From Acidipila sp. (GTDB lineage Bacteria > Acidobacteriota > Terriglobia > Acidiferrales > UBA7541), in the NCBI GenBank assembly GCA_010365215.1, contig JAAFGT010000001.1, positions 1-64,000 on the forward strand: a stretch of DNA of 64,000 nt, given 5' to 3'. Positions 38,038 to 61,507 of the stretch are shown in pieces (positions within the stretch are counted from its first letter, which is position 1; every line of letters starts with the position of its first letter). The notes beneath the pieces are model-generated. The model did no database searches. It was not told the DNA's origin and saw nothing but the letters and a program-made list of their open reading frames with translations. The position numbers were made by a program, and so were the translations under genes.

Positions 38038-38128
38038 TTTGGCCTCCCAGGGAGATCAGTGAGCGCGTGCTTTCGGTTTGCGTGTGACATTGCATTCGAC
38101 GAGCCATTTTTCTGCGGAGGTCAATAAC

Positions 38129-39286
38129 TTGCCCACCTGTACTGAGTTTGCATCCGTTCGCGCGCGTTTTCCTGTCTTCAAGAACAAAATCTATTTGAAC
38201 TCCTGCTCGCAGGGGGCGCTCAGCGACGCCGTCGAGGCGTCGCTGCTGCAGCACATTCGCAGCTGGCACGAAGACGGCTCGCCGTGGGAACGCTGGGTGG
38301 AGCAGTACGAGTCCGCGCGCGCTTCGTTTGCACGGTTCATCGGCGCCCAGCCCGACGAAGTGGCAATTGTACCGTGCGCGTCCACAGGAATCAGCGCGAT
38401 TGCGAGCGCGTTGAATTTTTCCGGCCAGCGGCGGAAAGTTGTCATGGGCGAGTTTGAATTCCCCACCATGGGGCAAATCTGGCTTGCCCAACAGTCTCGC
38501 GGCGCCGAAATTCAATTTGTCGCTGCGAAGGATGGCCGGATTCCAGCGAGTGCATACGCCGAGGCGATCGATGAGCGAACGCTGCTGGTTCCGCTGACGC
38601 ATGTCTGCTTCATGAATGGGGCGCGCTCCGATGTGCCGGCGATCACGAAGCTCGCCCGCGACCGCGGCGCCCTGACCATGCTCGACGATTACCAGGATTG
38701 CGGAACGCGTCCCGTTGACGTGAAAGCGCTCGACCTGGATTTTTACGTCAGCGGCGCGCTCAAATACATGCTCTGTCCATCGGGAGTAGCTTTTCTGTAT
38801 GTTCGCCCGGAATTAATTCGCTCGCTCACTCCGACGATCACAGGCTGGTTCGGCCAGCGGAACCCATTTGCTTTCGACGTGAAGCATTTCGACCCGGCCG
38901 TGACGGCGCGCCGCTTCGAATCGGGCTCTCCGCCGATCCCGCACGTCTACGCGGTGCCAGCGGCGCTCGAGCTGCTCGGCAGCGTTGGTTTTGATCGCAT
39001 CGCGGAGCACGTCGCCACCCTGGCGCAAGCTCTCCTGGCAGGGGCGCGGGAATTGAAGATTAAGATTAAGACCCCGGCAGATACCCGCGGGCCGCTCGTT
39101 GTGCTCCAAATGAAAAATTCCGAAGCAGCCGTGAAAAAACTCGCCTCTCACAATATTGTCGTCTCCAATCGCATGGACGGATTGCGCGTCTCTTTTCACC
39201 TTTACAACACGCTGGACGACGTCGGTGCCGTGCTCGAAGTGCTCCAAGAGAACCTCAACCTCACCGTGAGGGATTTAGGCGATTGA
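38129..39286 (+). CDS. Class V (PLP) aminotransferase, cysteine desulfurase-like
   Basis: A 385-residue PLP enzyme. I choose TTG 38129, because GGAGG at 38,116-38,120 is 8 bases upstream and the product then starts with the family N-terminus (EFASVRARFPVFKNKIYLNSCSQGAL). A start 51 bases earlier overlaps that site. PLP contacts appear in ASTGISAIASAL, LVPLTHVCFMNG, the DDYQDCG pair near residue 203 and the Schiff-base Lys in VSGALKYML near 223. The reaction may be a desulfurase, kynureninase-like or isopenicillin-N-epimerase-like one; Cys residues of a desulfurase active loop are not evident, so I leave it general. Confidence 0.87.
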   Translation: MPTCTEFASVRARFPVFKNKIYLNSCSQGALSDAVEASLLQHIRSWHEDGSPWERWVEQYESARASFARFIGAQPDEVAIVPCASTGISAIASALNFSGQRRKVVMGEFEFPTMGQIWLAQQSRGAEIQFVAAKDGRIPASAYAEAIDERTLLVPLTHVCFMNGARSDVPAITKLARDRGALTMLDDYQDCGTRPVDVKALDLDFYVSGALKYMLCPSGVAFLYVRPELIRSLTPTITGWFGQRNPFAFDVKHFDPAVTARRFESGSPPIPHVYAVPAALELLGSVGFDRIAEHVATLAQALLAGARELKIKIKTPADTRGPLVVLQMKNSEAAVKKLASHNIVVSNRMDGLRVSFHLYNTLDDVGAVLEVLQENLNLTVRDLGD

Positions 39287-39442
39287 TCAACTGCCTTATC
39301 GGCGCCAGCCACGCTGAGTGAGGCAGCACAATCTGCCAGTCGAACAGATTGGGAATTTTTATCAACTAGATGGGACTCCGGGAGTCGCCTTTGCTCAAGC
39401 CTCGAACTGCGTTCCGGCGGTTCCTGGAGGTGCTTGAAAGAA

Positions 39443-39488
39443 TGGCGCGCCCGGAGGGATTCGAACCCCCGACCCTCTGCTTAGAAGG
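39443..39488 (-). tRNA. 3' half of tRNA-Arg (TCT), integration footprint
   Basis: On the minus strand this is the 3' half of a tRNA-Arg: CTTCTAA anticodon loop (anticodon TCT), GCAGA anticodon 3' strand, variable loop, T arm GGGGG-TTCGAAT-CCCTC, acceptor CGGGCGC, discriminator G and encoded CCA. Upstream of the loop the match stops after one base, and the D arm and 5' acceptor strand are missing. Tyrosine integrases cross over in the anticodon arm and leave exactly such a 3' piece at the far end of an element. The intact tRNA would be expected to the right, but none is in the window. It is not a functional tRNA. Confidence 0.8.
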
Positions 39489-39500
39489 AAGTCGCAGGCC

Positions 39501-39670
39501 GATACCCCTTGTCGGTCGGTGATACCCGATTATGAGAATACGGCAACTTGTTGCCTGAGAGAATCCGCAGTGTCGGTCGGTGGTGGCCCTTGACGGTGTG
39601 AAAGTCCCTACAGTGCGAATTTGCAACGGACGGAGCTTGCAGTGAGCTTTAGGCGCTGTTTGGGCGCTGT
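39501..39670. repeat. Short direct repeats beside the tRNA half (candidate integrase arm sites)
   Basis: Three repeat families lie within 170 bp: GATACCC at 39,501 and 39,521, TGTCGGTCGGTG at 39,510-39,521 and 39,571-39,582, and GGCGCTGT at 39,652-39,659 and 39,663-39,670 (11 bp apart). Paired repeats beside an att core are what integrase arm sites look like. The rest of 39,287-40,012 shows no gene. Confidence 0.4.
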
Positions 39671-40012: not shown

Positions 40013-41281
40013 TTAGCGTTCGATTTCTAGCTCCGTCCCGGTTAATACGTCGCCCTTTGATGGTTGAGCGTCTTGGATGTTCCCTACCTGTTCTATTAAA
40101 TCCGATATTTCTAAACGAAGGTTTCCCGAGTTCGTGGCAAAAGCCAAACCCGTTTCGATATCAAGTACTCCACTGCGAATCAGTTTCTGGATCTCGCCAT
40201 CAAAATGCTGCATGCCTTCGTTTGATCCATCGTGCATCGCATCGGTCAGTGATTTGCCCTGGGACTCACCCTTCAACACATATTCCCGAGTCCGTAAGGT
40301 GGCTTTTAATATCTCGACGACAGCCACTCGTCCGGAGTCGTCCTTTCGAGGGAGCAGGCGCTGAGAAATAATATACCGAAATGATTTTGCGAATCGGTTG
40401 CGAATGGATTGCTGGTCACTCAAGGGAAACACGCCGATGATCCGGTCCAGGGTGGAAGATGCATCAATCGTGTGCAACGTGGAAAGCACCAGGTGGCCTG
40501 TCTCCGCCGCCTCCAGGGCGATCTCTATGGTCTCTTTGTCCCGCATTTCCCCGACAAGGATGACGTCCGGCGATTGTCGTAGGGCTGCACGCAGTGCAAG
40601 ATCGAATCGCGGCGTATCGCTATGAAGTTCCCGTTGATGGACGATTGATTTTTTGTGTTTATGCGTAAATTCAATCGGGTCCTCAATCGTCAAGATGTGG
40701 TGGGACTTCGTTTCATTTATCAGATTGACGATCGCCGCCAGCGTAGAAGACTTTCCTGATCCAGTCGGCCCAGTTACCAATACCATGCCGTTCTTTGTGT
40801 CCGCAATGTTAGCGATCTCACCCGGTAGATTTAGCGACGCCAAATCCGGGATAACCGTTGCGATAACCCGCATAACGATGGCGCAAGTCCCTCGTTGGGT
40901 GAACACATTCACTCGCAGCCTGGCCAGTTTCGGTACACTGTAGGACAGATCGCAGGAACCGACTTCCTTCAGCTTCTGCACTGCAAATTGGTTTGACCCG
41001 ATCAAGTCTCCCGCAATCCGCGCCGTATCTTCCGCACTAAGCGTCTCAATGCCTGGTACTCGAATCGGGACGAGCTCGCCATTTATCTTGACGTAGGGCT
41101 GGCATCCCGGCGATAGGAATAAATCATTCACCTGCTTCGACGCCAGTAGCATCCGCGAGACAATGAATTCTGTAGGCACCGCATCACACGATGTACTCAC
41201 GCTTGATTTCCCCTTGCCAACGCTGTGGGCCAGATTTTTTTCCGAAGTACACCCAGACGAGGCACTGATTCGCAGTCGCAT
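40013..41281 (-). CDS. PilT/PilU-type secretion ATPase, solitary
   Basis: A 422-residue hexameric AAA-like ATPase of the twitching-motility type. It has GPTGSGKS (Walker A, about 171-178), the Asp box ILTIEDPIEFTH, the Walker B region DVILVGEMRDKETI, the His box GHLVLSTLHTIDA, and the C-terminal LLPRKDDSGRVAVVEIL. The N-terminal domain has LASKQVNDLFLSPGCQPYVKINGELVPI. PilT retracts type IV pili from the cytoplasmic side. No other pilus genes are near, and the C-terminal tail is longer than usual by about 40 residues. The start is unclear; ATG 41281 is used, a GTG lies three codons upstream, and neither has a ribosome site. Confidence 0.88.
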   Translation of the reverse strand: MRLRISASSGCTSEKNLAHSVGKGKSSVSTSCDAVPTEFIVSRMLLASKQVNDLFLSPGCQPYVKINGELVPIRVPGIETLSAEDTARIAGDLIGSNQFAVQKLKEVGSCDLSYSVPKLARLRVNVFTQRGTCAIVMRVIATVIPDLASLNLPGEIANIADTKNGMVLVTGPTGSGKSSTLAAIVNLINETKSHHILTIEDPIEFTHKHKKSIVHQRELHSDTPRFDLALRAALRQSPDVILVGEMRDKETIEIALEAAETGHLVLSTLHTIDASSTLDRIIGVFPLSDQQSIRNRFAKSFRYIISQRLLPRKDDSGRVAVVEILKATLRTREYVLKGESQGKSLTDAMHDGSNEGMQHFDGEIQKLIRSGVLDIETGLAFATNSGNLRLEISDLIEQVGNIQDAQPSKGDVLTGTELEIER

Positions 41282-41666
41282 AAGTTTCACGGGTTATTCT
41301 GCATCTTGCAATGGATCATTGGTTTGGCCTTTCGGATAGGTCACCACCCACAAGAATTTCCTTGGGCGTGATCGTTCACTGCACCCGTGCCTGGCTGGGC
41401 ATGGCCTCGCAAGGGGGAGTCGCAGACTGGTACCAAAATGAAGGGGCTCCTTGGGTCCCGCAGCCAACTCCCGTCCCGATCTGAGAAGTTCTTTTAAGGT
41501 CGCTTCCCACCGATTTCGGGTGACGGGGCAATCGGAACTTATCGCCGGACGGGTCATAACTTCCGTATAGCCGACCACTTGTCCAAAACCTCGTTTCTCC
41601 GACAACTTCTCTTAAAGAACTGGCTTGATTGACTTGATTTCGGCTGCCACCTAAGATGTCCGCACC
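41282..41666. other. Intergenic, divergent genes
   Basis: This 385-bp stretch separates the PilT-type gene from the kinase gene. A minus-strand frame at 41,294-41,605 has no start signal, no domain and an unusual composition, so I do not call it a gene. No clear promoter was found. Confidence 0.4.
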
Positions 41667-44102
41667 GTGGCGGAAACCCCATCCCTGATTGGCCACACCG
41701 TCTCGCACTACCGCATCGTGGAGAAGCTCGGCGGCGGTGGGATGGGTGTGGTTTATAAAGCCGAGGACACGCGCCTCGACCGCTTTGTCGCTCTCAAATT
41801 CCTGCCCGACGACGTAGCCCGAGACGGCCAAGCCCTGGAGCGATTTCGCCGCGAAGCAAAGGCTGCCTCCGCGCTGAACCATCCGAACATCTGCACGATC
41901 TATGACATTGGAGAGGATGCCGGCAAAGCCTTCATCGCCATGGAGTATCTGGAAGGCATGACTTTAAAGCACGCCATCGCGGGCCGGCCTATGGAACTCG
42001 AAAACTTGCAGGACGTGGCCATTGAAGTGGCGGATGCACTGGATGCCGCCCACGCGCAAGGAATCGTTCACCGGGATATCAAGCCCGCCAACATTTTCGT
42101 GACCCGGCGAGGTCACGCCAAGATACTCGACTTCGGCCTGGCGAAAACCGCGGTCATGAACGATACGTTGGATGACGCCACGCTACCCACAAACGCAACT
42201 CGCGGGGTTAGCGAGGAACACCTGACCAGTCCCGGCACTGCGGTGGGCACCGTTGCCTACATGTCGCCCGAGCAGGCGCGGGCGAAGGAATTGGATGCAC
42301 GGAGCGACTTGTTTTCGTTCGGAACCGTCCTCTATGAGATGGCTACAGGCCAGTTGCCATTCCGCGGCGACAGTACAGCAACGATTTTTGAATCCATCCT
42401 GAACCGGCCACCTGCTCCAGCCGTGCGCCTGAATCCTGAAGTGCCGCCCAAGCTGGACGAGATCATCACCAAGGCTCTGGAGAAAGATCGCAATCTACGT
42501 TACCAGCACGCGGCCGATATGCGAACCGATTTGCAGCGGCTGAAACGGGACAGCGAATCCGGGAAATCAGCTGCCTCCCTGCCGGTGGCAACGCCGGGAA
42601 CTTCCGCCCGAAAATATTGGTTGGCGGCAGTGGTCGTCGTGTTAATCACGATGTCAGCCGCCGGGATCTGGTATTCCCGCGCCAGAGCCGGCGCATCGCA
42701 AATCGACTCCATTGCCGTGATTCCATTCGCCAACGTGGGCGGCAATTCCGACACCGATTTCCTCAGCGATGGCCTCAGCGAATCCTTGATCTCCAGCCTC
42801 GCCCACGTTCCCCTTTTGAAGGTGAAGTCCCGCAACTCCGTCTTCCGCTACAAGGGCAAAGAGCTTGACCTTCAGAAGGTCGGCAATGATTTGACCGTCG
42901 ATGCCTTGCTCACCGGCAGAGTGGTGCAGCGCGGGGACACCATCCAGGTTAGCGCTGAACTCACCAACGTCCGGGACAATACCGAAATCTGGGGCGAGCA
43001 TTATGAGCGCAAAGCTTCCGACATCATCTCCTTGCAGCAGCAAATCGCGGGCGATATTGTCGGAAAGCTTCGCTCCAAGTTGAGCGGGGCGGAAAAACAG
43101 CAGGTCACCAGGCAGGGCACACAGAACCCGGAAGCCTACCAGCTGTACGTAAAGGGTCGTTACTATTGGAATAAACGTACCAACGCCGATCTTAAGACGG
43201 CCATTTCGTACTTCAACCAGGCCATCGACAAAGATCCCGGTTACGCGCTGGCATACTCAGGACTGGCGGATGCCTATAGCGTGATGGGCGTTTTTGGCGG
43301 CGACCCTAATGACACTTACCCCAAGTCGAATGCTGCGGCGGAAAAAGCTCTGGAACTCGATCCCACACTCGCACGCGCATATGCGGACCTGGCTGCCAAC
43401 AAGATGGCATATGGCCGGGATTTTTCCGGCGGCGAAGCCGAGTTCAGAAAAGCTTTTGAGTTGGATCCCAGCGACGCCACCGCTCATCAATGGTTTGCCG
43501 AGAGTATCGCCTACATCGGTGGTCGGGTGCAGGAGTCGATCGCTGAGGCTAACCGGGCCCAGCAACTCGATCCGCTGTCGCCCATCATTGGAATGAACCA
43601 AGCGTGGGTTTACGCGTCCGCCCGCCAATTTGACAGGGCTATAGAAATCTGCAAGAAAGTTGTCGCCGACAATCCAACCTTTGGCAACGCGCACCTCGGC
43701 CTCGCACAGGCATATCGGAGCAAGCATGAATATCCCCAGACCATTCAAGAGTATAAAATCGCCGCTCAATTAGGGGCCGACAAGAATGGCACTGAGTTCG
43801 CCGCCGCCCTGGACTCGGGCTTTCGCTCTGGCGGATGGCCGGGTGCGCTGCGCAAGGCAATAGACGTCTCACTCGCGCAACGTAAGACTAACGCTGCTTT
43901 CGTTTCTCCTTACAAAATCGCACGGTTGTATGCCGATCTGGGTGACAAGAATCATGCGTTCGAGTGGCTCAACACCGCCTACCAGGAACACGAGCCCTTG
44001 GTGATCAGCCTTCGGACCGACTTCACAATGGATTCGCTGCGCTCCGATCCGCGCTATGCGGAACTAGTGCGCAAAATCGGTTTCCCGCAATCGTCACAGT
44101 GA
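41667..44102 (+). CDS. Ser/Thr protein kinase with TolB-like domain and TPR repeats
   Basis: An 811-residue membrane kinase. The kinase domain (about 15-285) is complete: [14 protein letters not shown] loop, Lys44 in [15 protein letters not shown] at 135-142, DFG at 155-157 and [25 protein letters not shown]. One membrane helix at about 312-333 follows. The outer part starts [14 protein letters not shown], a FlgO/TolB-like nucleotide-cyclase-associated domain (about 345-480), and then TPR repeats to the end ([39 protein letters not shown] and others). This layout is typical of acidobacterial kinase families. GTG 41667 is the only in-frame start that keeps the N-terminus. Targets are unknown. 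Confidence 0.92.
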
Positions 44103-44288
44103 CTGCGCTCTTCGCATAACTTCGCCTTCGCACTCGCGATTGCAGAAATCCGGGTAACGGCACAAACGAGCGGTTCCATAAACGGTCGCCAACGGTTCTG
44201 GGTGATTGACGAGGCGTCCGGCTAATGACTTTCGCAGGAGATAACCACACCATCTTCTTCGTGTCGGGCTGTGATTCGGGCATTCCTC

Positions 44289-44700
44289 ATGCCCATCGCC
44301 GCAGGAACTCGCTTCGGGCCCTACGAAATAATATCCGCTGCCGGTGTTGGCGGCATGGGCGAAGTTTATCGCGCCAAAGACACCCGCTTAGACCGCATCG
44401 TAGCGGTGAAGGTATTGCCCTCCGAGCTTGCCAATGATCCAGAGAAGCGGCAGCGGTTTGAACGAGAAGCACGATCTATCTCAACGCTTTCCCATCCTCA
44501 CATCTGCACATTGCACGACATTGGACAACAGGATGGAGTGGACTACCTGGTATTGGAATATCTGGAAGGCGAAACGCTGGAGAAGAAACTGGAAAAGGGT
44601 TCACTGCCCACTCCCGAAGTTCTGAAATATGCCATCGAGCTCGCGGACGCTTTGGATAAGGCCCACCGGCAAGGGATCATCCATCGGGACATCAAGCCTC
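44289..44700 (+). pseudogene. Ser/Thr protein kinase, truncated in the catalytic loop
   Basis: The first about 137 residues of a second kinase, with its ATP loop ([16 protein letters not shown]), the ATP Lys in IVAVKVLP and [18 protein letters not shown]. The frame breaks off exactly after HRDIKP: the expected Asn, the DFG motif and everything beyond are missing, and the next codons belong to a TonB-receptor tail. The protein would stop at 44,717. It starts 186 bp after the intact kinase gene and is a paralogue of it. It cannot be an active kinase; expression of a stub is possible but unlikely to matter. Confidence 0.85.
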
Positions 44701-44827
44701 AACCACCCGAACTTTAACTCCGCAGGGGAACGGATTTGCTAATCCGTCGTTGACGAGCGGCTGCCTCCTGACCGCCGTTGGCAGTCCGGGACGCAGCATC
44801 CGTTTCGGGATTACGCTGCGCTGGTAA
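44701..44827 (+). pseudogene. C-terminal tail of an Oar-like TonB receptor (frameshifted)
   Basis: Read as NHPNFNSAG, then with one G skipped in the GGGG at 44,725-44,728 as NGFANPSLTSG...GSPGRSIRFGITLRW and a TAA at 44,825. This is the usual last strand of an Oar-like receptor. It is joined directly to the kinase remnant at 44,700, so an illegitimate recombination joined two unrelated genes. Confidence 0.65.
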
Positions 44828-44847
44828 ATTGGTCGCTTAAGCAACGT

Positions 44848-45160
44848 CGGCGGGCTTTGCGCGAAGGATTGGAACAACTTTGCTCCGCGTCTCGGATTTG
44901 CCCGGGACGTGTTTGGCAATGGCAAGACTAGCCTGCGCGGCGGCTACTGGATCGGGTATGAGAGGAACTGCGGAAGCGTTGCATTTAACGTGATTCAGAA
45001 TCCGCCGGGGTTTCTGGTTGTTTCCTTGGTGGCTCCTGTTGATTCCCTCACTTCCGATCACCGTCAACAACTTTGGCCTCTGGAGCCCAAGGACTACCCA
45101 AAGCCAGCATGAGGAACGTGAATCCCCATCTCCGTACGGTTTGATGCGCGTCGGGCGAAG
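44848..45160 (+). pseudogene. Internal fragment of an Oar-like TonB receptor (several frameshifts)
   Basis: In one frame NNFAPRLGFARDVFGNGKTSLRGGY and NVIQNPPGF, then in a second frame IPSLPITVNNFGL, then in a third SMRNVNPHLRTV before a stop. All three pieces fit one continuous receptor barrel, so at least two frameshifts are needed. It lies after, not before, the C-terminal tail at 44,701-44,827, so the order is scrambled or two receptor copies were lost here. Confidence 0.7.
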
Positions 45161-45234: not shown

Positions 45235-46332
45235 CTACTGCGGAAGCATCTTTGGAGCCATCGCCGTTTCGAGGCGCGAGAATGCGGAATCCACTGCGAC
45301 ATCGCTCGAATGGACATAGCGGGCTGAAACGCCGACGCTGCCATGTCCAGCAACCCGCATGAAGGTCCAAGTGTCTATCCCGCTCAAGCCCAAGCGCGTA
45401 AGGAAGCTATGTCGGATGCTATGAAGGCAGAATCTCCTCACCGGCTCTTGGTTATGCTCTTCCGCTTGTCCCTTGAGCACCTGAAACGTTGTGCGGAGTT
45501 GCCGTTTGAGGCTGTTCGGCTCCAGGTGGCCCGAGCGTGTCGGCGCGGGCCAGATCGGTCCTTCTTCGGGCATCCCCGCCGCCTTCCAGCGAGCTTCCAG
45601 TGTTTCGCGCACCCGGAGACTCATCGGAAGTTTTCGGCGTGCTGCCGCCGATTTGCCCTGCCGCACTTCCAAGAAGCCGTTTCTGCCGCTGAGCCAAGTA
45701 ATGTTGTGCCAGTCCAGTGAGAGACATTCCGACACTCGCAGGCCGGTGTCGAACAGTATCGCCCCCACGGAAGCCAGCGGTTCCGATGCTGCTGACAAAA
45801 ACTTCGCTTCCTCAATGGGCGAGACAACGCGGTCCCGGTGCTTCTCACCGCGCAGCAAGCTAATCCGGGGCGGGGAAGTGATTGCGCCCCATTCCGCCGC
45901 TAACCGCAAGAGCCGTCTCAGGACTCGCAGACAGCTATTCACGCTCGAAACCTGCAACCCCTCGCTCTGGCGATGCGCAGCGAAGCCCGCAATGTCTTCC
46001 CCGGTGATCTCATCCATAGGCTTAGAAGAAAGCTGAGCATAGTCCGCCAGCACTTTCAGGTTTGGCTTGTACCAGCGCAGCCACGTTGCCGGGGAAGTCC
46101 GCTCGAAGCGAGCTTTACACCACGGCTCGAAGCGGACCTTGATGAATTGCGCGAGTGTGGGTGCTGCTGGCCGTTCCTTAAAGCCGAATTTCTCAGCCTG
46201 TAGTCGTGCCTTGAATTGGTCCTCGAAGCCTTTTGCGTCCTTGCGGTTTCGTAGCTTTGTCGAGCATTGATACCGCCTGCCGTCGAGGTAGAAATCGCAC
46301 CAAAAGATTTCGCCCCTCTTCACGATTGCCAT
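45235..46332 (-). CDS. int: Tyrosine recombinase / phage-type integrase
   Basis: A 365-residue integrase. An N-terminal arm-binding-like part (VKRGEIFWCDFYLDGRRYQCSTKLRNRKDAKGFE, 1-50) leads to a SAM-like core-binding domain (about 60-155) and the catalytic domain (about 170-345). The catalytic set is Arg199 (DTGLRVSECLSLDW), Lys227, His304 and Arg307 (HSIRHSF), His330 (VAGHGS) and the nucleophile Tyr339 (ARYVH). It starts one base after the stop of the zinc-ribbon gene, so the two are one operon. It is the best candidate to move this module; whether it also made the tRNA-Arg footprint 6 kb to the left is open. Confidence 0.94.
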   Translation of the reverse strand: MAIVKRGEIFWCDFYLDGRRYQCSTKLRNRKDAKGFEDQFKARLQAEKFGFKERPAAPTLAQFIKVRFEPWCKARFERTSPATWLRWYKPNLKVLADYAQLSSKPMDEITGEDIAGFAAHRQSEGLQVSSVNSCLRVLRRLLRLAAEWGAITSPPRISLLRGEKHRDRVVSPIEEAKFLSAASEPLASVGAILFDTGLRVSECLSLDWHNITWLSGRNGFLEVRQGKSAAARRKLPMSLRVRETLEARWKAAGMPEEGPIWPAPTRSGHLEPNSLKRQLRTTFQVLKGQAEEHNQEPVRRFCLHSIRHSFLTRLGLSGIDTWTFMRVAGHGSVGVSARYVHSSDVAVDSAFSRLETAMAPKMLPQ

Positions 46333-46333: not shown

Positions 46334-46987
46334 TTATTTCCCCCTCCTCGTCGGTTTCTTCTTTTTTAGTTTCTCTGCTCTTTTTTTCTTGCCTACCCTG
46401 TTCCACCAATCAAGCTTGGCTTGCCGCTGAAAAGTCGTCGCGCACTCTTTGCAACAGAATCTTGCACGGGGATCGGCGGCGATGAAAAAACGCGCCGGGC
46501 AGTCGGGATTGATACAAACCTTCGCGAACCGAGCCGACTTCAGTAGTTCATACAATGCGGCCTGGAAATCGTTCCTCGGTGCATACGTTAGACCGCCACG
46601 CTGCCAGTCCGCCCTGGAAAAAGCAGGCCCCTTGCTTTCATCGAAGGAGGTAAAAAGCAGAAGATCCAAGTCCTTGCAGGAACCACTCCACGCAGCCCGG
46701 GTAAGATCACGGAAAAGGCGAAACGTTTCATCTTCGGGCAGCTGTTCGATCGCAGCAAAACGATCGGGCGGGGGCGCATCTGGGAGCGGAGCGCCAGACG
46801 CGAGGTTCAGAGGGTCCACGATTTTTCTTTGAGCCATCGCAGGCCAGCCAGCCTTGAGAGCTTCATCCACGAATCCCGGATGAATTCTCAGGAAACGGGC
46901 GACGGCTTGCTTATCGTCACGTGTATTTGCAAAGTCCGCCAGAGCGGCAAGCCCCGGATTGCTTCTTGCTAGATTGGATTTCGTCAT
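46334..46987 (-). CDS. CGNR/ABATE-like zinc-ribbon protein
   Basis: A 217-residue protein that I would place near the CGNR zinc-finger family. The N-terminal part is helical and without motif. The C-terminal part has CINPDCPARFFIAADPRARFCCKECATTFQRQ (about 155-185), a CX4C...CX2C zinc knuckle, then a basic tail ending KKKRAEKLKKKKPTRRGK that could bind DNA or RNA. GAGG lies 10 bases before ATG 46987. It is co-transcribed with the integrase, so a role in control of the element is likely; this is inference. Its own promoter region is shared with the divergent excisionase-like gene. Confidence 0.75.
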   Translation of the reverse strand: MTKSNLARSNPGLAALADFANTRDDKQAVARFLRIHPGFVDEALKAGWPAMAQRKIVDPLNLASGAPLPDAPPPDRFAAIEQLPEDETFRLFRDLTRAAWSGSCKDLDLLLFTSFDESKGPAFSRADWQRGGLTYAPRNDFQAALYELLKSARFAKVCINPDCPARFFIAADPRARFCCKECATTFQRQAKLDWWNRVGKKKRAEKLKKKKPTRRGK

Positions 46988-47087: not shown

Positions 47088-47309
47088 ATGAGCGACACGA
47101 ACGCCGAGATTCTTCGAGGCTACACCCTGAAAGAAGCGGCACGGGCAATCAGCATTTCCGAGAATACATTGCGTCTGCACATCAAACGTGGAAGCGCCGC
47201 TGCTATTCATTGCGGGAGGCGTGTCATCGTGCCAGGAGCGGAAGTGGCGCGGATTCTTCGGGAAGGTTTGCCGAGCTTGGCCACGGAGAAAGTTGGCTCG
47301 GTCCAGTAA
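47088..47309 (+). CDS. Excisionase-like helix-turn-helix protein
   Basis: A 73-residue MerR/excisionase-type DNA-binding protein: GYTLKEAARAISISENTLRLHIKRGSAAAIHCGRRVIVPGAEV has the helix-turn-helix plus wing of this family. An AGAGG site stands 7 bases before the ATG. It is the first gene of the rightward set, opposite the integrase operon, the normal place of a recombination directionality factor. It is followed after 4 bp by the primase-like gene. It is also the first candidate to bind the inverted repeat in its own promoter. Confidence 0.8.
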   Translation: MSDTNAEILRGYTLKEAARAISISENTLRLHIKRGSAAAIHCGRRVIVPGAEVARILREGLPSLATEKVGSVQ

Positions 47310-47313
47310 CGCC

Positions 47314-47859
47314 ATGCTGCCAGCGCAACAAATCGACGCCGTAAAAGCGCAGACGAACATCGTGCGCGTGATCGCTGAGCGCGTCTCACTGCGGAAGTCT
47401 GGAGCAAGTTTCGTCGGCCTGTGCCCTTTCCACGATGAGCATACGCCGAGTTTCCACGTCACTCCCGGCACGGGCCGCGCACACTGCTTCGGCTGCCAGT
47501 GGGACGGCGACGTGTTTGCATACCTTCAAGCAGCCGAGAAACTAAGCTTCCCCGAAGCCGTCCGCAAAGTCGCGGCGCTAACCGGAATCGCGCTGGACAA
47601 TCTTCCGGCACCCGAGGCCGAACGGCTGCGCGAGGAGAACCAGCTCGAACGTCGGCGAGCTGAAGCCTACTGTCACGCCGAGCGCAAACTCCTCCTGGAA
47701 TTGGCTGACGAACTAGATTGGTTGCGGAAGCTGCACCGCAAGGCTGACGAATGCATTACGGCGGGCCAGAAGCAAGAATTGGCGTGGGCGTCGCTTGAAT
47801 TTGTCGCTCACCAACTCCCACGCACCGATGCCGCCTATGTGATCGTCGCTCACAGTTGA
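47314..47859 (+). CDS. Mini-primase: CHC2 zinc-finger domain only
   Basis: A 181-residue protein whose first 100 residues match the DnaG zinc-binding domain: AVKAQTNIVRVIAERVSLRKSGASFVGLCPFHDEHTPSF and RAHCFGCQWDGDVFAYLQAAEKLSFPEAVRKVA, with the CX2H...CX2C zinc set. The TOPRIM catalytic domain of DnaG is absent; instead a charged helical stretch of about 80 residues follows and the gene stops at 47,859. Such CHC2-only proteins occur on integrative elements. ATG 47314 lies 4 bp after the excisionase-like gene; an upstream extension in the same frame overlaps that gene and is rejected. Confidence 0.85.
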   Translation: MLPAQQIDAVKAQTNIVRVIAERVSLRKSGASFVGLCPFHDEHTPSFHVTPGTGRAHCFGCQWDGDVFAYLQAAEKLSFPEAVRKVAALTGIALDNLPAPEAERLREENQLERRRAEAYCHAERKLLLELADELDWLRKLHRKADECITAGQKQELAWASLEFVAHQLPRTDAAYVIVAHS

Positions 47860-48024: not shown

Positions 48025-48372
48025 GTGTGCGATGAGAAAAAAATAATCGGTAAACCTTTTTTACCGGGCCAGAGTGGTAACCTTTCCGGGAGGCCGAAAC
48101 GGCGATTGGTCGATAAAGCCCTGGAGGTGCAACTCCTCACCAATGATTCGGAGAAGGCCACGCAGCTTGCGGCGGTGCTGCTGGAAAAGGCACTTAGGGG
48201 CAACTTGGATGCGGCCAAGTTAGTCCTTGATCGCGTCGAGGGCCGGGCCTTGCAGCGTACAGAGCTTTCTGGGCCAGACGCGGGACCACTGGCGTTCGCA
48301 AACATGACTGACGAACAACTCGACGCGAGAATCGACGAATTGGTATTGAAAAGGGCCGAGGAGGCAAAATGA
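48025..48372 (+). CDS. DUF5681-like small protein
   Basis: A 115-residue protein starting at GTG 48025 after a GAGAGGG site. Near the N-terminus KPFLPGQSGNLSGRPKRRL matches the short basic motif of the DUF5681 family, found on phages and mobile elements next to terminase or homing genes. The rest is helical. It overlaps the next gene by four bases. The 165-bp gap before it holds no gene. Its function is unknown. Confidence 0.7.
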   Translation: MCDEKKIIGKPFLPGQSGNLSGRPKRRLVDKALEVQLLTNDSEKATQLAAVLLEKALRGNLDAAKLVLDRVEGRALQRTELSGPDAGPLAFANMTDEQLDARIDELVLKRAEEAK

Positions 48373-48593: not shown

Positions 48594-48764
48594 GAAACGG
48601 TGCGTAAGGCGGTAGGACTTCGCGATGATCGCTAATCCAAGTCTGACCAAAGTTATGGGAAATTGTCGCCTATCGACCTAGGCTTCGGATTGTAGAGGAA
48701 GTCGTGGAAGTGAAATCGTTCACGTAAGCCGACTGGACCAAAATTGTCTCCGAAACGCAAAATC

Positions 48765-49301
48765 ATGGGCCGACTTTCGATCATGGTCGGAAATACGGTA
48801 CAGATTGCTGGCGCTATAGTCGCTTGCCTTGCTCTTGCGGCAGCGCGATCTGCACACTCGGCCATAGGTGCTGTTTTCGCCATGGTCGTGGGATGGGTGC
48901 TCCTCTATTTCTGCTGCCATGCTATCGCCCATTGGGTTGTCGGACGATTACTTGGCATTCGCTTTGCATTCTACACAGTCGGTGGAACCGGGAATCCAGA
49001 GGGCTGGCCTGTTGGCCTCCGTTGGTTATTTGAACATCTCCCTTTTTTGGGAGTACACACGGACAAGGACTCCATGCAAATTGCCAGCCCGATTGCCAAA
49101 GGGATTATGTGGTCTGCGGGAGCGACGGCTTCCGCCGTTGTCCCTACCTTGGGCGCGCTTTGGGCATGGCGCTCCGGCGTGATTTGGAGCAAGTTGTTTT
49201 TACTGTTTGCGCTGTTTTGGGCGGTTGGCACGTTGGCGAGCAACTGGACGAGTCGCGGAGGAGACTATTCCAAGGCGCGACGAGCCCTCGGCAAATTATG
49301 A
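48765..49301 (+). CDS. Hypothetical membrane protein with HAIAH motif
   Basis: A 178-residue protein with about four hydrophobic segments (TVQIAGAIVACLALAAARS, AIGAVFAMVVGWVLLYFCCHAIAHWVVG, GATASAVVPTLGALWAW, SKLFLLFALFWAVGTLAS). The stretch CCHAIAHWVVGRLLGIRF resembles the HExxH membrane helix of M50 site-2 proteases, but the catalytic Glu is Ala, so zinc binding may remain while catalysis is doubtful. I start at ATG 48765; a TTG seven codons earlier is also possible. It has no clear partner: it sits between the mobile module and the Crp/Fnr gene. Confidence 0.6.
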   Translation: MGRLSIMVGNTVQIAGAIVACLALAAARSAHSAIGAVFAMVVGWVLLYFCCHAIAHWVVGRLLGIRFAFYTVGGTGNPEGWPVGLRWLFEHLPFLGVHTDKDSMQIASPIAKGIMWSAGATASAVVPTLGALWAWRSGVIWSKLFLLFALFWAVGTLASNWTSRGGDYSKARRALGKL

Positions 49302-49489
49302 GTGATCGCCTGGACCACAGATGACTATATAAACGCGAGCCAAGTACCTATTCCTAAGCTAGGCGGCTGCTTCTCCGAGCCACCGGCTACCAACCGTTTG
49401 GCAGTCTATTAACCAGTAAGCCACCATCTCTCATTCGGATGTTGCTTTGGTTAGTTAATACTGTCAGACCATGAGTAAGTGGTGGCGTT

Positions 49490-50182
49490 ATGAGAAGGTT
49501 CGCTACATCAAGCAAGATCGAAGCCAACACAAAATCCATGGGAAAGCCCGCTTTCGATGCGCAAGCGTTTCTCGATTCAGCCGGTGTAGCGAGAAAGGTT
49601 TTGGAGTATCGAAAATCCCAGTTGATCTACTCGCAAGGGGATCCCGCTACGAGTGTCATATATATTCAAAAGGGCGTTGTGAAGATCACTGTTGTCAACA
49701 CGGTTGGAAAAGAGGCCGTCGTGGCGATTCTGAGCGCCGGCGACTTTTTGGGCGAGGGATGCATGACGGGGCAGACGGCTTACATCGGGACAGCAACCAC
49801 GATGACATCCACGACTGTACTCACGATTGGGAAGAGTGAAATGATTCGCGTGATCCATGATGAACATGCGTTTTCCGACCGTTTCATCTCTCATTTGCTT
49901 GGACGAAACATCCGAATCGAGGAGGACTTGGTCGATCAGCTTTTCAACTCCACCGAGAAACGGCTGGCACGCACTTTATTGCTGCTGGCGCGCTACAGCA
50001 CACAAGATCAGCCGCAAAAGTTGCTCCCCAAAGTAACTCAGGAGATGCTGGCAGAGATGATTGGTGCGTCGCGCCCGCGGGTAAACTTCTTCATGAGCAA
50101 ATTCAAGAAACTGGGCTTTATTTCCTATAACCGCGGCTTGCATATTAACAATTCCCTTCTTCGTGTTGTCCTGCACGAGTAA
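49490..50182 (+). CDS. Crp/Fnr-family transcription regulator
   Basis: A 230-residue regulator. A cyclic-nucleotide-binding-like domain (about 30-140; QLIYSQGDPATSVIYIQKGVVKITVVNTVGKEAVVAILSAGDFLGEG) is followed by a dimer helix and a winged helix (KVTQEMLAEMIGASRPRVNFFMSKFKKLGFISYN). The cAMP-contact Arg-Ser pair of Crp is not seen and there are no Fnr cysteines, so the ligand is unknown. It converges on the leftward signalling cluster whose last gene ends 160 bp away. In this cluster a c-di-GMP-responsive role is conceivable, but nothing in the sequence proves it. Confidence 0.9.
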   Translation: MRRFATSSKIEANTKSMGKPAFDAQAFLDSAGVARKVLEYRKSQLIYSQGDPATSVIYIQKGVVKITVVNTVGKEAVVAILSAGDFLGEGCMTGQTAYIGTATTMTSTTVLTIGKSEMIRVIHDEHAFSDRFISHLLGRNIRIEEDLVDQLFNSTEKRLARTLLLLARYSTQDQPQKLLPKVTQEMLAEMIGASRPRVNFFMSKFKKLGFISYNRGLHINNSLLRVVLHE

Positions 50183-50342
50183 GCCCATATCAGGTGGTGC
50201 CAGAGCAGTCGGAAAGCGGTTAGGCTGTCGCCTAGACCCAGCGAATGATGTTCGTGGCACCTCCTCTCGCTGTCATTCAATTGAGGAGTTAATCCGTTCG
50301 GCATCGGGCGGAAAACGCTTTTTGGGGCAGGCCAATCGGCTT

Positions 50343-50732
50343 TTAGGCCAAGTTTACTGGATCGCGCGAAGGCAGCCAGCGTTGCAGGCTGGTGCGCAAG
50401 AGTACGAAATCCACGGGCTTCGCTATACAAGCTTTGCAGCCCGACTCGAGAATGCGTTCCCGGTCCGCTGGCATGGCTTGCGCGGTGACGGCGATGACAG
50501 GAACGAGTTGAAGTTCAGGCTCGTTGCTCATCCATTTAGCAAAACGCAAGCCATCGTCGGCGCCCAGTTGAACGTCTAGTAGAACTAGATCCGGACTGTG
50601 GTCGCGGACCGCCGCAAGACCAGTGTTCAAATCCTCGGCAACAACTACTTCATATCCCTCGCCCTCAAGCCAGTCACAAAGAAGCTCGCGGTTGAGAAAG
50701 CTATCTTCCAGAAGCAGGATTTGGTGTTTCAT
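50343..50732 (-). CDS. Stand-alone response regulator receiver
   Basis: A 129-residue single receiver. It starts at ATG 50732, which overlaps the stop of the hybrid kinase gene (ATGA). The acidic pocket is ILLLEDS, the phospho-accepting Asp is in DLVLLDVQLG, the Thr in IAVTAQA and the Lys in CIAKPVD; all are intact. With no output domain it works by protein contact, probably as the phosphate acceptor of the hybrid kinase just upstream. It ends the leftward cluster. Confidence 0.9.
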   Translation of the reverse strand: MKHQILLLEDSFLNRELLCDWLEGEGYEVVVAEDLNTGLAAVRDHSPDLVLLDVQLGADDGLRFAKWMSNEPELQLVPVIAVTAQAMPADRERILESGCKACIAKPVDFVLLRTSLQRWLPSRDPVNLA

Positions 50733-53302
50733 GCATTTTCCAGTTGGGGGGAGCCGAGGGCTTTCTTCACTTGATTGAGTAAGTCTTCTTTCCACGGCTG
50801 CTTCTTGTGCAGCAAGGCATCGACCTGCGTGCGAAGATACTTTTCTTCCTCTGATGTAATATCTTTATTGGTCAAGACGAAGACAGGCAGGTCGGCCGTC
50901 CGCGAATGTGCGCGCCATTCCGCGAGGAGTTCGAGCCCACCTGTTTCTGGCAGGAGCAAATCCAAAATGACCAGCTCTGGAAGAAATTCTTGGACGGCTT
51001 TGCGCGCCTCGGCACCGTCCCTCGCTGTCGTAACTGAATAGCCTTGGCTGCGTAGCAACTTGCAGATAACCTCGAGCGTGACGGTGTCGTCTTCAACCAC
51101 CAAAACCGATCGATTCAAAGGCGGCCGGACGATTCCTCCAAGACACCGTCTGATCGCTCCGGCGAGTTTATCCATCTCCACTGGCTTGACTAGGTACGCA
51201 TCCGCGCCGAGTGCCGCGCCTATCCCAGGCTGATCCACGACGCTGACAACTACGACAGGAATGAGTGCGGTTCGGGGGTTTCTTTTCAGTTGCAGAAGGA
51301 TCTCCCAACCATTGATAGGCTTCATCTGCAGTTCAAGCGTGACAGCATCGGGCTGCAGTCGAGAGGCCAGTTCTGTCGCAACCTCGGGTTGGTCGCAGAC
51401 ATCTACCTCGTAGCCAGCGCTCGTTAGGTAGGAACGGATTAGCTGTGCAGCGACGGGCTCATCGTCAATCACGAGTATGCGCATCGGCTTCGTTGCGGTG
51501 GGAGTGCTAGTCTCTTTCGCCGGCGAGATGGGGACACGGCTGCCAGCCGGCAGCTCGAAGAAGAAGCAACATCCCTTGCCAAGCTCGCTTTCCAGTCCCA
51601 AGATCCCTCCCTGCAACTCTACTAAGCGCTGCGTGATTGCGAGACCGAGTCCGGTACCTTCCGGTGCTTGACCGGACTGCAGCCGGTAGAATGCCTCGAA
51701 GATCCGCTTTTGCTGCTCGGGCGCTATGCCAGGCCCAGAATCTTGAATCTCAACGCGGACGCGCTCTCCGACAAGTCGAGCCGAAATTCGAATGCGTCCG
51801 CTGTTCGGCGTGAACTTGATAGCATTGCCAAGAAGGTTCATTAAAACTTGTTGGAAGCGGGTAGCGTCCGCCCAGACTGCAATATGTTTTTGAATTTCCG
51901 GTGAGAAGTGCTGCGACTTGTTGTCGGCTAAGGGTTGTAGGGCAGTGAGCACTTCGTTTACCGCGGCATCCACAGCGACAGACTCCCGCGCCAGTTCGAG
52001 ATGGCCTGCCGCGATTTTGGAGAGGTCGAGAATGTCGTTGATGAGTTTAAGCAAGTGCTTTCCGCCAATTTGAATGTTACGGAGATACCGTTCTTGGCGG
52101 GCGTTCAGCGTACCGTAGCGCTGGTCGCTCAGAAGCTCCGAAAAACCAAGAATGGCGGTAAGCGGGGTGCGGAGCTCATGACTCATCGTGGACAAGAACT
52201 GATCCTTGCACTTATTCGCGCGTTCGGCCTCGTCTTTGGCCCCAACAAGCTCTGCTTCAGTCCTCTTACTGTGGCTAATATTACGAAATACGACGACACC
52301 CCCGCGCAGATTACCCTGAGCATCGCGCAACGGACGTGCGGTTGCGCTACAGAAGATTCCCAGTTGGTGATTCTGTCGGCGCACAAAAAATTCAAAATCG
52401 GTCACTTCCTCTCCCCGCATCGCGCGAGTGAGAGGAATAGATTCGGTAGGTAAAGGAGTGACTTGATCCGGCAAGAACAGTCGGTATTTGGTCGACCATT
52501 GCTCCACTGGGATATCCAAACGCTGAACCCCCAAGATGTGCTCGGCAGCTTGGTTGAAACGCAGAAACCTGCCCTGAAGATCGGCAACGACGACGCCGTC
52601 ACCTATATGCTCAAGAATCGATTCGATTATTTCCGATTGGTCGCGCATGGCCGCTTCGGTCTTCTTTCGCTCGGTGATATCCTCAATGGCGCACACGATG
52701 CTGCCAGAGTCGTGTCCGAAACGGTCGACCTTTCGAGCGTTGATAAACATCGTCCTCTGTCCTAGCTTTGGCATTTGCTGAATAACCTCGAAATCCTCCG
52801 AACACTCGTTGGTGGGCAGGTTTTCCTCCAGAAGCGAGCGCAGGCGTGCGATATTCCATTGTCCGTCACCTATCTCGTACACAAAACGCCGTAGCGTGAC
52901 CTCGGGCGTAAGTTGGAAGTTACGATAAAACGCGCGGTTCGCGGTTCTCACCCGCAGGTCGGGGCCTAGCACCAAAAGCGGTTCTCGCATCGTGTTAAAC
53001 AGATTTTCCGCGTAGACGCGAGCCGATTTCTCCGCACATTCGGCCTGTTCGCAAGCGTATAAATTCCGGTTTGCCGACACAATGAGAATGACTACCAACA
53101 AAAACAAAAGGAACATCGCCAAGCTGGTGGTGCGCTCGGTGTTACGCAGCTCGATATCTGCACGCGTACTGCGTTCGCCCAGAATGGAATGCGTGGCATC
53201 GTCCAACTTCTTAAAGCTGCGGCGTTCGACAAAACCAAAGATTAAGAAAATGAGTACAACGATGTAGACTACAATCCTTTGTTTTTTCATCACCCATTTC
53301 AT
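50729..53302 (-). CDS. Hybrid sensor histidine kinase, PAS-PAS-HisKA-HATPase-REC-REC
   Basis: An 857-residue kinase. Two membrane helices (about 11-28 and 60-80) enclose a short outer part, then two PAS domains (about 100-215 and 225-350), HisKA (FLSTMSHELRTPLTAILGF, near 385), HATPase (NLLGNAIKFTP, DSGPGIAPEQ, GTGLGLAITQ) and two receivers (about 607-720 and 737-850). The first receiver has PDAVTLELQMKPINGW, with Glu where the phospho-accepting Asp should be; the second is intact (VILDLLLPE). Phosphate should therefore flow through the second receiver or to the lone receiver encoded just downstream. A second ATG four codons in is also possible. Confidence 0.92.
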   Translation of the reverse strand: MKWVMKKQRIVVYIVVLIFLIFGFVERRSFKKLDDATHSILGERSTRADIELRNTERTTSLAMFLLFLLVVILIVSANRNLYACEQAECAEKSARVYAENLFNTMREPLLVLGPDLRVRTANRAFYRNFQLTPEVTLRRFVYEIGDGQWNIARLRSLLEENLPTNECSEDFEVIQQMPKLGQRTMFINARKVDRFGHDSGSIVCAIEDITERKKTEAAMRDQSEIIESILEHIGDGVVVADLQGRFLRFNQAAEHILGVQRLDIPVEQWSTKYRLFLPDQVTPLPTESIPLTRAMRGEEVTDFEFFVRRQNHQLGIFCSATARPLRDAQGNLRGGVVVFRNISHSKRTEAELVGAKDEAERANKCKDQFLSTMSHELRTPLTAILGFSELLSDQRYGTLNARQERYLRNIQIGGKHLLKLINDILDLSKIAAGHLELARESVAVDAAVNEVLTALQPLADNKSQHFSPEIQKHIAVWADATRFQQVLMNLLGNAIKFTPNSGRIRISARLVGERVRVEIQDSGPGIAPEQQKRIFEAFYRLQSGQAPEGTGLGLAITQRLVELQGGILGLESELGKGCCFFFELPAGSRVPISPAKETSTPTATKPMRILVIDDEPVAAQLIRSYLTSAGYEVDVCDQPEVATELASRLQPDAVTLELQMKPINGWEILLQLKRNPRTALIPVVVVSVVDQPGIGAALGADAYLVKPVEMDKLAGAIRRCLGGIVRPPLNRSVLVVEDDTVTLEVICKLLRSQGYSVTTARDGAEARKAVQEFLPELVILDLLLPETGGLELLAEWRAHSRTADLPVFVLTNKDITSEEEKYLRTQVDALLHKKQPWKEDLLNQVKKALGSPQLENA

Positions 53303-53379
53303 GGCGACTTCCTTATCGGGGACTTAAACGCCCCAGGGCATAAATTCTTGTTCCGTGACAGACTCAAACCACTCATTTG

Positions 53380-54369
53380 TCAGGCCGCGTGCTCTACGGC
53401 GGCGGGCGCGCCATTAGTGAGGGCGATCTTGAATTCCTTTACCACGGCTGGGTCCCACCAACCGAGCATCACTTCGTCACGCATAATCCCAAACGCCTGC
53501 TCTTGCGGTAAAGCCTTGCGGTAGGGACGGTCCGTCGTCAGGGCGTCATATACGTCCACTGCGGAGAGGATGCGGGCGGTTAGCGGAATCCGGCCGCCTT
53601 TCAGGCCGTCGGGGTAACCTGATCCATCGAGTTTCTCGTGGTGGTGCCGGATAATCGGCAGAACATGGCGGAATGATTTTAAGGGCGAACAGATGCGTTC
53701 ACCAAAAACGGGATGCTGCCTCATGGTCACCCATTCTTCTGGGGATAGGGGCCCAGGCTTGAGTAAAATATGCTCGGGGACGGCCAACTTGCCTATGTCG
53801 TGAATGACGCCCGCACGGCGCAGCGCTACGCACAACTCTTCTTTCAGCCCCAGGCGCTTAGCGAGTGCGACTGAATACTTTGAGAGCCGGTCGCAGTGAC
53901 CGTGCGTATACGGGTCTTTGGCCTCGATGCTGAGCGCAAGGCTGAATAGCACCGTTTCAGCGTTTTCAAGTTCATCTGTGAATTGTTTGAGACGTAGGAG
54001 CGAGCGAACCCGAGCAAGCAATTCCTCCCTAACTACGGGCTTATTTAGGAAGTCGTCCGCCCCGCACTCGATTCCGCGAATGCGATCTTCCGTCTGGGAC
54101 AATCCTGTCACCAGCACCACCGGAATCAGTCGCGTTTCCGGATCGGATTTAAGAGATTTACATAATTCAAATCCCGTTAGCCGTGGCATCATGACGTCCA
54201 AGAGCGCCAAGTCCACCCGCTCGCCGCGCAGCCGAGCCAATGCTTGTTCACCGTCCTCCGCGGATATTACCCTGTAGTTTTCAAGTTCGAGGAACTCAGA
54301 GAGGATTTCACGGTTATGCTCGCTGTCATCAGCGACCAGGATCGTCGCGCCGACGATTTCTTTAAACAC
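53380..54369 (-). CDS. Response regulator with HD-GYP c-di-GMP phosphodiesterase
   Basis: A 329-residue protein. The receiver (about 1-125; ATILVADDSEHNREILSEFLELENY, Asp in LALLDVMMPRLTG, Lys in LNKPV) is complete. The HD-GYP domain (about 145-325) has HDIGKLAVPEHILLKPG, RQHPVFGERI and IRHHHEKLDGSGYPDG, the metal and GYP set of active c-di-GMP phosphodiesterases. The gene lies 77 bp upstream of the hybrid kinase gene, which may phosphorylate it. Its first 30 codons and leader are duplicated at 56,895-57,122. Confidence 0.93.
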   Translation of the reverse strand: MFKEIVGATILVADDSEHNREILSEFLELENYRVISAEDGEQALARLRGERVDLALLDVMMPRLTGFELCKSLKSDPETRLIPVVLVTGLSQTEDRIRGIECGADDFLNKPVVREELLARVRSLLRLKQFTDELENAETVLFSLALSIEAKDPYTHGHCDRLSKYSVALAKRLGLKEELCVALRRAGVIHDIGKLAVPEHILLKPGPLSPEEWVTMRQHPVFGERICSPLKSFRHVLPIIRHHHEKLDGSGYPDGLKGGRIPLTARILSAVDVYDALTTDRPYRKALPQEQAFGIMRDEVMLGWWDPAVVKEFKIALTNGAPAAVEHAA

Positions 54370-54493
54370 AGTTTAAGTCTCCTCGCTGCGAGAGGCGTCG
54401 CGGGGCCGGGCAGCCCAACTATCCTTGAGTACATCGGCTGAATTAGGACAAAGCTTTAGTAATTATTTGAAGGCACTCCCCATCTGATTCGGT
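54273..54493. repeat. Direct repeat, copy A (left flank of GGDEF-EAL gene)
   Basis: About 221 bp, nearly identical to copy B at 56,895-57,122 (scattered single changes and one 7-base gap). It contains the first codons of the REC-HD-GYP gene, its leader, and at its right end the last codons of the sigma-factor gene as a dead remnant (NQMGSAFK and a stop on the minus strand). The remaining 54,494-54,665 carries no gene. Confidence 0.85.
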
Positions 54494-54665
54494 TCACAGT
54501 CGAATTGCGGCAAATTTGACAGTCCATACCGCTCACGAGGCCGGGCTTTTTACGGGCGATTTTCAGCAGGAGTTTTGGCCGCTGGCTGGCTTCCCGTTTC
54601 GCAACGAACAATTTTTCAGATTTCTATTTTCCGGAGCAGAAATGCTTAGCCACGGAATATAAGCA

Positions 54666-56768: not shown

Positions 56769-56769
56769 A

Positions 56770-56991
56770 TTAGGCCCTAACCGAACAGTGCACTTCTTTT
56801 AGCGCCCCTACTGTCCAAATTGTTACATTACTCGAAAGAGTAAATAGACTTTGTTCACGTCGAGACCGCTCGCATATTCCCGCGGAACTTGCCTTGTAGT
56901 TTTCAAGTTCGAGGAACTTAGAGAGGATTTCACGGTTATGCTCGCTGTCATCAGCGACCAGGATTGTCGCGTCGACGTTTTCTTTAGACAC
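56770..56991 (-). pseudogene. Truncated receiver (remnant of the REC-HD-GYP gene start)
   Basis: The first 30 or so residues (ATILVADDSEHNREILSKFLELENYK) are almost those of the REC-HD-GYP protein, then the text turns into unrelated residues and stops at 56,770. The phospho-accepting Asp, Thr and Lys are missing. It ends 1 bp before the ATG of the GGDEF-EAL gene (TAATATG), so translation of this stub may still feed ribosomes onto that gene. It belongs to copy B of the direct repeat. Confidence 0.75.
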
Positions 56992-57122
56992 AGTTTAAGT
57001 CTCCTCGCTGCGAGAGGCGTCGCGGGGCCGGGCAGCGCAACTGTCCTCCGCTTATGGAGTACGTCGGCTGAATTAGGTCGAAGCTTTAATAATTATTTGA
57101 AGGCACTCCCCATCTGATTCGA
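56895..57122. repeat. Direct repeat, copy B (right flank of GGDEF-EAL gene)
   Basis: About 228 bp, matching copy A at 54,273-54,493. It contains the start of the receiver remnant, the leader, and the live last codons and stop of the sigma-factor gene. Together the copies show that sigma gene and receiver gene were once neighbours and that the 2.4-kb segment between the copies was gained by duplication or recombination. Confidence 0.85.
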
Positions 57123-58118: not shown

Positions 58119-58621
58119 GTGAATACTCCTATGGGATGGACTCAAGTGCTCGACCCTTATAAATGACGGCGAACTTTCTCGCGTGTGTTGCGCGCCGATG
58201 CAAACGGTAGAGGGCAAAGGAAAGGTGATAGCTTCACATTTAAATTACTCATCGTGAATAGCAGCTGTGAACTTGATCTCTTGCCTGTTCCGCTTCCGCA
58301 CAATATAGAAACACTTGGCTCGGTGTATGTTCACAATGGTACTATTTACTATAAATTAGTAATGTCTAACGTAGTTGTTTCACACTTAGACTGTAAGTGT
58401 CACAATGGAACTGTAAGTTTCATAATGGAACTGTATTGGCGGGAGTTTCTCGAAGGGCAAAAGGGGCGTGGTTGGTTAGAGATTGGGCGGGGCGTGCTTG
58501 TATCCAGTGAAATGGACTCGTCGTCACGTCAGCACGATGCATCCAAGGCCATTAATATTCGCCAGCTCGGCATCACGTATTGCTGCCGCGCAAGAGACCA
58601 ATGAGTTTATTGCAGAAATCA
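58119..58621. other. AT-rich intergenic region before the sigma gene
   Basis: No gene is credible in these 503 bp; a plus-strand frame of 139 codons at 58,185-58,604 has AT-rich, unlike codon use and no start signal. The region must carry the sigma-factor promoter and contains the repeats listed at 58,330-58,435. Confidence 0.5.
58330..58435. repeat. Three copies of TCACAATGGAACTGTA-like repeat
   Basis: TCACAATGGTACTAT (58,331), TCACAATGGAACTGTA (58,400-58,415) and TCATAATGGAACTGTA (58,420-58,435); the last two are 20 bp apart. This may be a regulator site array or the decayed end of an IS21-type element, whose ends carry such multiple repeats. Confidence 0.45.
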
Positions 58622-60208: not shown

Positions 60209-60289
60209 TTTATTGTTCTCCGTTGCGTAGTTTCCTTACTAGCCGTCATATCGGGCGATACGAAGGGAAACATTAGCTAATATCCAGCG

Positions 60290-61214: not shown

Positions 61215-61507
61215 TACAAGATCCCCCCAAATCGAGCGTTTTCGACCGAGAATTTCGGACTTACTCTCCTGATCTCCTAGCGGTGAGCGGCGCTACCCCG
61301 CCGCCCGTGCACCTGCCTCATATGTTGTTACCCTCAGGGCTTGCCTCAAGTCGGTTACACTTGCGGACGATGAAGTAATTGTGTGTATCAAAGATGCTGC
61401 CTGAATGAATCTGCGCCTCATAGGTTGATAGAAACAAGTGGAACTCGCCATGCAAACTTGTTTGGAGCAATTTCATCGACTGCCACTGGTAACGCGGAGG
61501 CTCGAAG
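61215..61507. other. Intergenic after the dead element
   Basis: No gene, promoter of good quality or repeat was recognised in this stretch. A minus-strand frame at 61,318-61,608 overlaps the receiver gene and has no domain. Confidence 0.4.

Follow-up and report, generated by a model that had tools for sequence, protein, structure and literature searches.

The DNA between two copies of a tRNA-Arg(TCT) sequence on contig C38 is very probably a tRNA genomic island of 36 kb, and both of its ends could be located. Fixing the two ends of this Acidobacteriota island reassigns ~25 kb of genes in the window (the whole 64,000-nucleotide stretch analyzed) from the chromosome to the island. The type is ordinary for tRNA islands, here in an Acidobacteriota genome, and the event is of a well-understood kind.

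The left end was recognized from a piece of tRNA. The minus strand of 39443-39488 reads CCTTCTAAGCAGAGGGTCGGGGGTTCGAATCCCTCCGGGCGCGCCA, the 46 bases of a tRNA-Arg(TCT) 3' half running from the anticodon loop (TCT) to the CCA. ARAGORN found no complete tRNA in the 64-kb window, and a search with Rfam over 1.1 kb around the piece gave no match at the gathering threshold or at E 5; the piece is therefore a fragment and not a gene, in agreement with the preliminary description, which had read only a 3' half at this place. That description had further taken the half for the displaced end of an element extending to the right from 39.5 kb, with the intact tRNA lying outside the window, and had proposed searching the genome for an intact tRNA-Arg(TCT) carrying the same 46 bases. 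A genome-wide pattern search uncovered a second exact copy of the half on the same contig (C38:75518), and ARAGORN placed there an intact tRNA-Arg(TCT) (C38:75511-75587, minus strand, same orientation as the half). This is the sole intact tRNA-Arg(TCT) in the 4.12-Mb genome, and the window's right edge falls 11.5 kb short of it. The third exact pattern match, on contig 49, belongs to a tRNA-Arg(CCG) that has the 3' region alone in common. Had the intact copy lacked an element on its 3' side, this would have spoken against the proposal; what was found is a copy whose 3' side faces 36 kb of lower-G+C DNA ending at the half, so that the proposed direction, the position of the other end and the displaced nature of the half were all borne out.

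The two copies share 48 consecutive identical bases (39441-39488 and C38:75509-75556), spanning the anticodon loop to 2 nt beyond the CCA. An identity of this length to the genome's only intact tRNA-Arg(TCT) is far beyond chance. Beyond 39488 the exact match ends, and seven of the next nine bases are the same in both (minus strand, GCGACTTCC versus GCGTCTGCC), which is expected of an attP core site mimicking the anticodon stem. The features of the left end are as follows.

38078-39286, plus strand: aminotransferase class V gene of the left chromosomal flank, the last host gene before the island (Pfam Aminotran_5, 1e-43)
39441-39488, minus strand: left attachment junction, the tRNA-Arg(TCT) 3' half plus 2 nt, a 48-bp exact direct repeat of C38:75509-75556
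39489-39594, minus strand: arm between the core and the arm-site repeat, with no tRNA 5' half except the 7/9 agreement in the anticodon stem
39595-39614, plus strand: putative integrase arm-type site GGTGTGAAAGTCCCTACAGT, a 20-bp direct repeat with its second copy at C38:75448-75467

The distance between the two tRNA copies is 36,068 bp. G+C content between them is 53.6%, while the other 139 kb of the contig have 58.0% (Mann-Whitney p 1e-6, 3-kb bins), with steps at both junctions. It amounts to 57-58% in the left flank, 56.7% at 42-48 kb and 51-55% in the cargo, the 42-48 kb stretch being closer to the host value than the 48-75 kb stretch. When the flanks are joined at the anticodon, one intact tRNA-Arg(TCT) results, and the predicted circle junction holds none. 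The assembly is a draft of 91 contigs, and both junctions lie on one contig of 175 kb.

The arrangement is that of the islands collected in Islander, where the crossover is centred on the anticodon in 2083 of 3919 islands, 3760 islands carry a 3' fragment versus 159 with a 5' fragment, and a 3' fragment has to be downstream of the tRNA gene (PMC4383910). Here too, the tRNA gene and the fragment are found on one replicon in the same orientation, the 3' fragment (39441-39488) is downstream of the minus-strand tRNA (75511-75587), the crossover is centred on the anticodon, and the 36,068 bp in between, within the 2-200 kb range, enclose a tyrosine integrase (45235-46332). The difference from the Islander islands (PMC4383910) is that this integrase lies 5.6 kb inside the fragment end and not beside the intact tRNA. 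An empty site was not found via the flank genes: the aminotransferase and MmgE/PrpD orthologues in the host's family have no tRNA within 1.5 kb, in other genera of the family neither was found adjoining a tRNA-Arg, and larger regions in the family genomes have no gene order in common with both flanks. A displaced 3' half of tRNA-Arg(TCT) was observed in another genus of the family (L167, G004:C45, ~323-373); it sits away from the intact copy of that genome, and its place and flanking genes are unlike those of the window. From this half, tRNA-Arg(TCT) is a repeated target.

The 20-bp repeat GGTGTGAAAGTCCCTACAGT lies just inside both island ends, as integrase arm sites do, which points to a putative arm site. 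No third copy was found in the 4.1-Mb genome with up to 2 mismatches, and a reading of the repeat as a dispersed insertion sequence was rejected, two genome copies being all there are. Measured to the anticodon centre, it lies 111 nt away at the left end and 85 nt at the right end. A 17/20 copy occurs immediately after the stop of an integrase gene in another genome (G024:C273), and 300 simulated sets never gave above 15/20. When the pattern was searched in 399 genomes of the class, matches with two mismatches were no commoner than those of a reversed-pattern control, and only the G024 match (one mismatch in 18) adjoins an integrase. The left arm also holds a 12-bp sequence, TGTCGGTCGGTG, twice (39510-39521 and 39571-39582, 61 bp apart), a pair of possible accessory-factor sites. 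Rfam gave no intron match, either at gathering or up to E 5, and two readings were rejected on this ground: that the tRNA anticodon loop had taken up a group I intron, and that 39.6 kb holds what is left of a group II intron.

The genes inside the island are the following.

40016-41290, minus strand: PilT-like type II/IV secretion ATPase (Pfam T2SSE, 8e-47)
41667-44102, plus strand: Ser/Thr protein kinase with TPR repeats (Pfam Pkinase, 1.5e-50)
44271-44717, plus strand: truncated Ser/Thr kinase (Pfam Pkinase, positions 1-127 of 263 only)
45235-46332, minus strand: intact tyrosine recombinase (integrase) of 365 aa (Pfam Phage_integrase, 1.4e-15; PHROG integrase, 8e-39)
46334-46987, minus strand: gene upstream of the integrase (tblastn, 6e-11 to L186/L140)
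47188-47859, plus strand: CHC2 zinc-finger (DnaG-like primase) gene (Pfam Zn_ribbon_DnaG, 2.7e-30; PHROG DNA primase, 4e-35)
48025-48372, plus strand: DUF5681 gene (Pfam, 2.7e-10)
48744-64000: cargo within the window, namely a Crp-like regulator, a hybrid histidine kinase, an HD-domain response regulator, a GGDEF-EAL protein, a sigma factor and a response regulator
Past the window, to C38:75508: hybrid kinase, GGDEF, cytochrome c and CheB-CheR-kinase genes, the last of these (C38:71773-75171) being the last island gene before the right end

The 3' end of the integrase gene is directed at the left junction. The truncated kinase is a sign that the stretch between arm site and integrase has been rearranged; in 44271-45130 it is followed by what appears by eye to be a fragment of a TonB-dependent receptor, remains of rearrangement near the integrase. 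Among the island proteins searched with Pfam, no relaxase or type IV secretion genes were found, the PilT-like ATPase being the only related hit; with no conjugation genes among them, the island is probably not self-transmissible. In PADLOC the kinase was assigned to PD-T4-6, the CHC2 gene to DRT primases; both assignments were rejected as domain-level matches only.

In our model, an integrative element would have entered the anticodon loop of the sole tRNA-Arg(TCT) gene by site-specific recombination. With a copy of the tRNA 3' half present in its attP, an intact tRNA would have been rebuilt at the right end (C38:75511-75587), where it would retain the host promoter, and the original 3' half would have been pushed to the left end (39441-39488), with the 36,068 bp in between forming the island. 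A later rearrangement would have placed 5.6 kb (39.6-45.2 kb) between the integrase and the arm site. Two junctions, paired inner repeats, the G+C step and an intact integrase support the presence of an element, and both the integrase and its neighbor gene are homologous to those of elements at tRNA genes in other Acidobacteriota. We consider it somewhat probable that the 45.2-kb integrase made this insertion; its distance of 5.6 kb from the nearer end, as opposed to ~90-100 nt from the intact tRNA in relatives, stands against the assignment. From the direction of the integrase and the 111-nt spacing seen also in relatives, the left end is likely the integrase-proximal arm. The island may still be able to excise.

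To place the integrase, relatives were collected. Those 41-55% identical to it were found in 89 genomes of the family and GTDB contigs, and IMG/VR adds two more; the named ones are Acidobacteriota, save one bin among the more distant ones. In alignment A1 the integrase is 50-51% identical to its relatives (55% to L183), with homology over the full length. R199, K227, R307, H330 and Y339, which we take to be the catalytic residues, are invariant in the alignment. The gene upstream of the integrase has a homolog at the same position in related elements (that of L191 scores zf-CGNR at 1.3e-5). In nearly all relatives, the integrase 3' end faces an intact tRNA ~90-100 nt away, and an arm-site-like pair (GGGCACA...GGGCACA) ends 69-76 nt from the tRNA. 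The window's arm-site sequence is unlike this pair of most relatives and is matched in G024 only.

Four relatives sit at tRNA-Arg(TCT). The tRNA has its 5' end toward the integrase in L182, L183, L186, L187, L188, L190 and L222, and its 3' end toward it in L184, L185, L189, L191-L195, L200 and L223. At its far end, L186 has the tRNA 5' half copied over 34 bp, and L191 and L185 have copies of the 3' half at theirs; each end of L186, and likewise of L191, bears a core repeat and an arm-site repeat, as in the window. The relatives with both ends bounded are only ~4.5-9 kb long, and the named relatives are metagenome assemblies in which many contigs break inside the element. In L185 (QHVI01000030.1), three direct copies of the tRNA-Pro(TGG) 3' half occur (2143-2192, 3991-4039, 11125-11174), which probably stem from the stacking of two elements in a single tRNA gene. 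The genome of the island itself holds, at a tRNA-Leu on another contig (G000:C91, L138, 311-1031), a GGTGTGGGT pair followed by the decayed C-terminus of an integrase of the same family; this is an old insertion.

Arm site and anticodon centre are 110-112 nt apart in 15 of the 17 loci and 105 nt apart in the other two, in both polarity groups, whereas the distance from the arm site to the near tRNA end differs between the groups. The spacing is constant because the crossover takes place at the anticodon loop. At tRNA-Leu, the divergent integrases of L197, L199 and L202 depart from it (135, 137 and 89 nt). On the integrase tree, at least two changes of polarity are forced by well-supported branches and at least three are counted, and they occur also among tRNA-Arg(CCG) elements. 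The island shares with L182-L195, L222 and L223 an integrase of the same family, the anticodon crossover, the homologous upstream gene (in several of them), an arm-site repeat at both ends where both are seen, and the spacing at its left, integrase-side end, 111 nt; as the window's arm-site edge is defined by the extent of the repeat and not by a footprint, this fit to 110-112 nt is suggestive only. The far arms of three relatives measure 122-134 nt, versus 85 nt at the window's right end. The family layout with the integrase beside the intact tRNA is not found here, the integrase being 5.6 kb from the arm site and the junction at that end holding only the tRNA half. Relative to the integrase, the window tRNA is oriented like the four tRNA-Arg(TCT) relatives that mend the 5' half. 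The family relatives as a whole mend the tRNA, by its 5' or 3' half, on the integrase side, with a GGGCACA-pair arm site, whereas the window island mends the 3' half at the far end.

This far-end mending of the 3' half leaves two possibilities: a patch carried on the integrase-distal arm, or a lost maker integrase with the present one as a lodger. The second possibility, which we regard as somewhat unlikely, would have the same island made by an integrase since lost from the right end beside the intact tRNA, with the 45.2-kb integrase coming from a nested or leftover element. It would explain why the 45.2-kb integrase lies amid truncated genes with no arm site downstream of its stop and why the 42-48 kb stretch, at 56.7% G+C, resembles the host, and it would restore the usual layout for 3'-half elements, with the integrase beside the intact tRNA (L184, L185, L191-L195). 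Against it, tblastn detected no integrase remnant near the right end and no second integrase near either end, the 111 nt at the left fits an integrase-proximal arm where the 85 nt at the right does not, and the G024 arm site directly follows the integrase stop in an orientation that would make the window's left end integrase-proximal. We therefore moderately favor a patch on the integrase-distal arm. A fusion of two elements that shared tRNA-Arg(TCT) as their target, in which the inner junctions were lost and a single interval resulted, is unlikely: the G+C difference that separates the cargo from the integrase module (45.2-48.4 kb), the truncated kinase at 44.3-44.7 kb, the stacking precedent of L185 with its three tRNA-half copies and the small size of bounded relatives (~4.5-9 kb) are what it would account for, but neither the tRNA half nor the arm-site repeat occurs a third time within the interval.

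Readings that dispense with an element fare worse against the junctions themselves. It is very improbable that the half is a tRNA pseudogene or a chance partial duplication of the tRNA gene; tRNA fragments do occur in genomes and no empty site was seen, but the gene is broken within the anticodon loop, the island rule holds for both orientation and side, an unrelated second repeat is present at both ends, and G+C steps at both. A draft of 91 contigs, compared with relatives that are themselves fragmented metagenome assemblies, might also have joined two places sharing a tRNA repeat, an error we hold to be most improbable here: 48 bp is little sequence to cause a misjoin, a single 175-kb contig carries the two junctions in a consistent order, and each coincides with a change in composition.

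Returning to the patch on the integrase-distal arm, we give an even chance to a model in which the tRNA-mending patch of attP is independent of integrase recognition, one family working at ~110 nt being able to insert with the tRNA in either direction and to mend either half, and the window island representing a third arrangement. As a natural experiment, the comparison bears on the choice that tRNA-targeting integrases make between the two halves when one is replaced. Mending of the 5' half has been described for pTN3-like archaeal integrases and in rare bacterial cases (PMC8371274). Seven of the relatives are of this type, mending the 5' half and bringing a promoter-like box, whereas the window island mends the 3' half. 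With one family handling both halves at constant spacing, the 3' bias of the Islander collection may reflect the need for a tRNA promoter and not a property of the recombinase. In L183, L188, L190 and L222, a TATAAT-like box is found between the integrase stop and the tRNA 5' end, and from this motif the 5'-half-mending elements seem also to bring a tRNA promoter.
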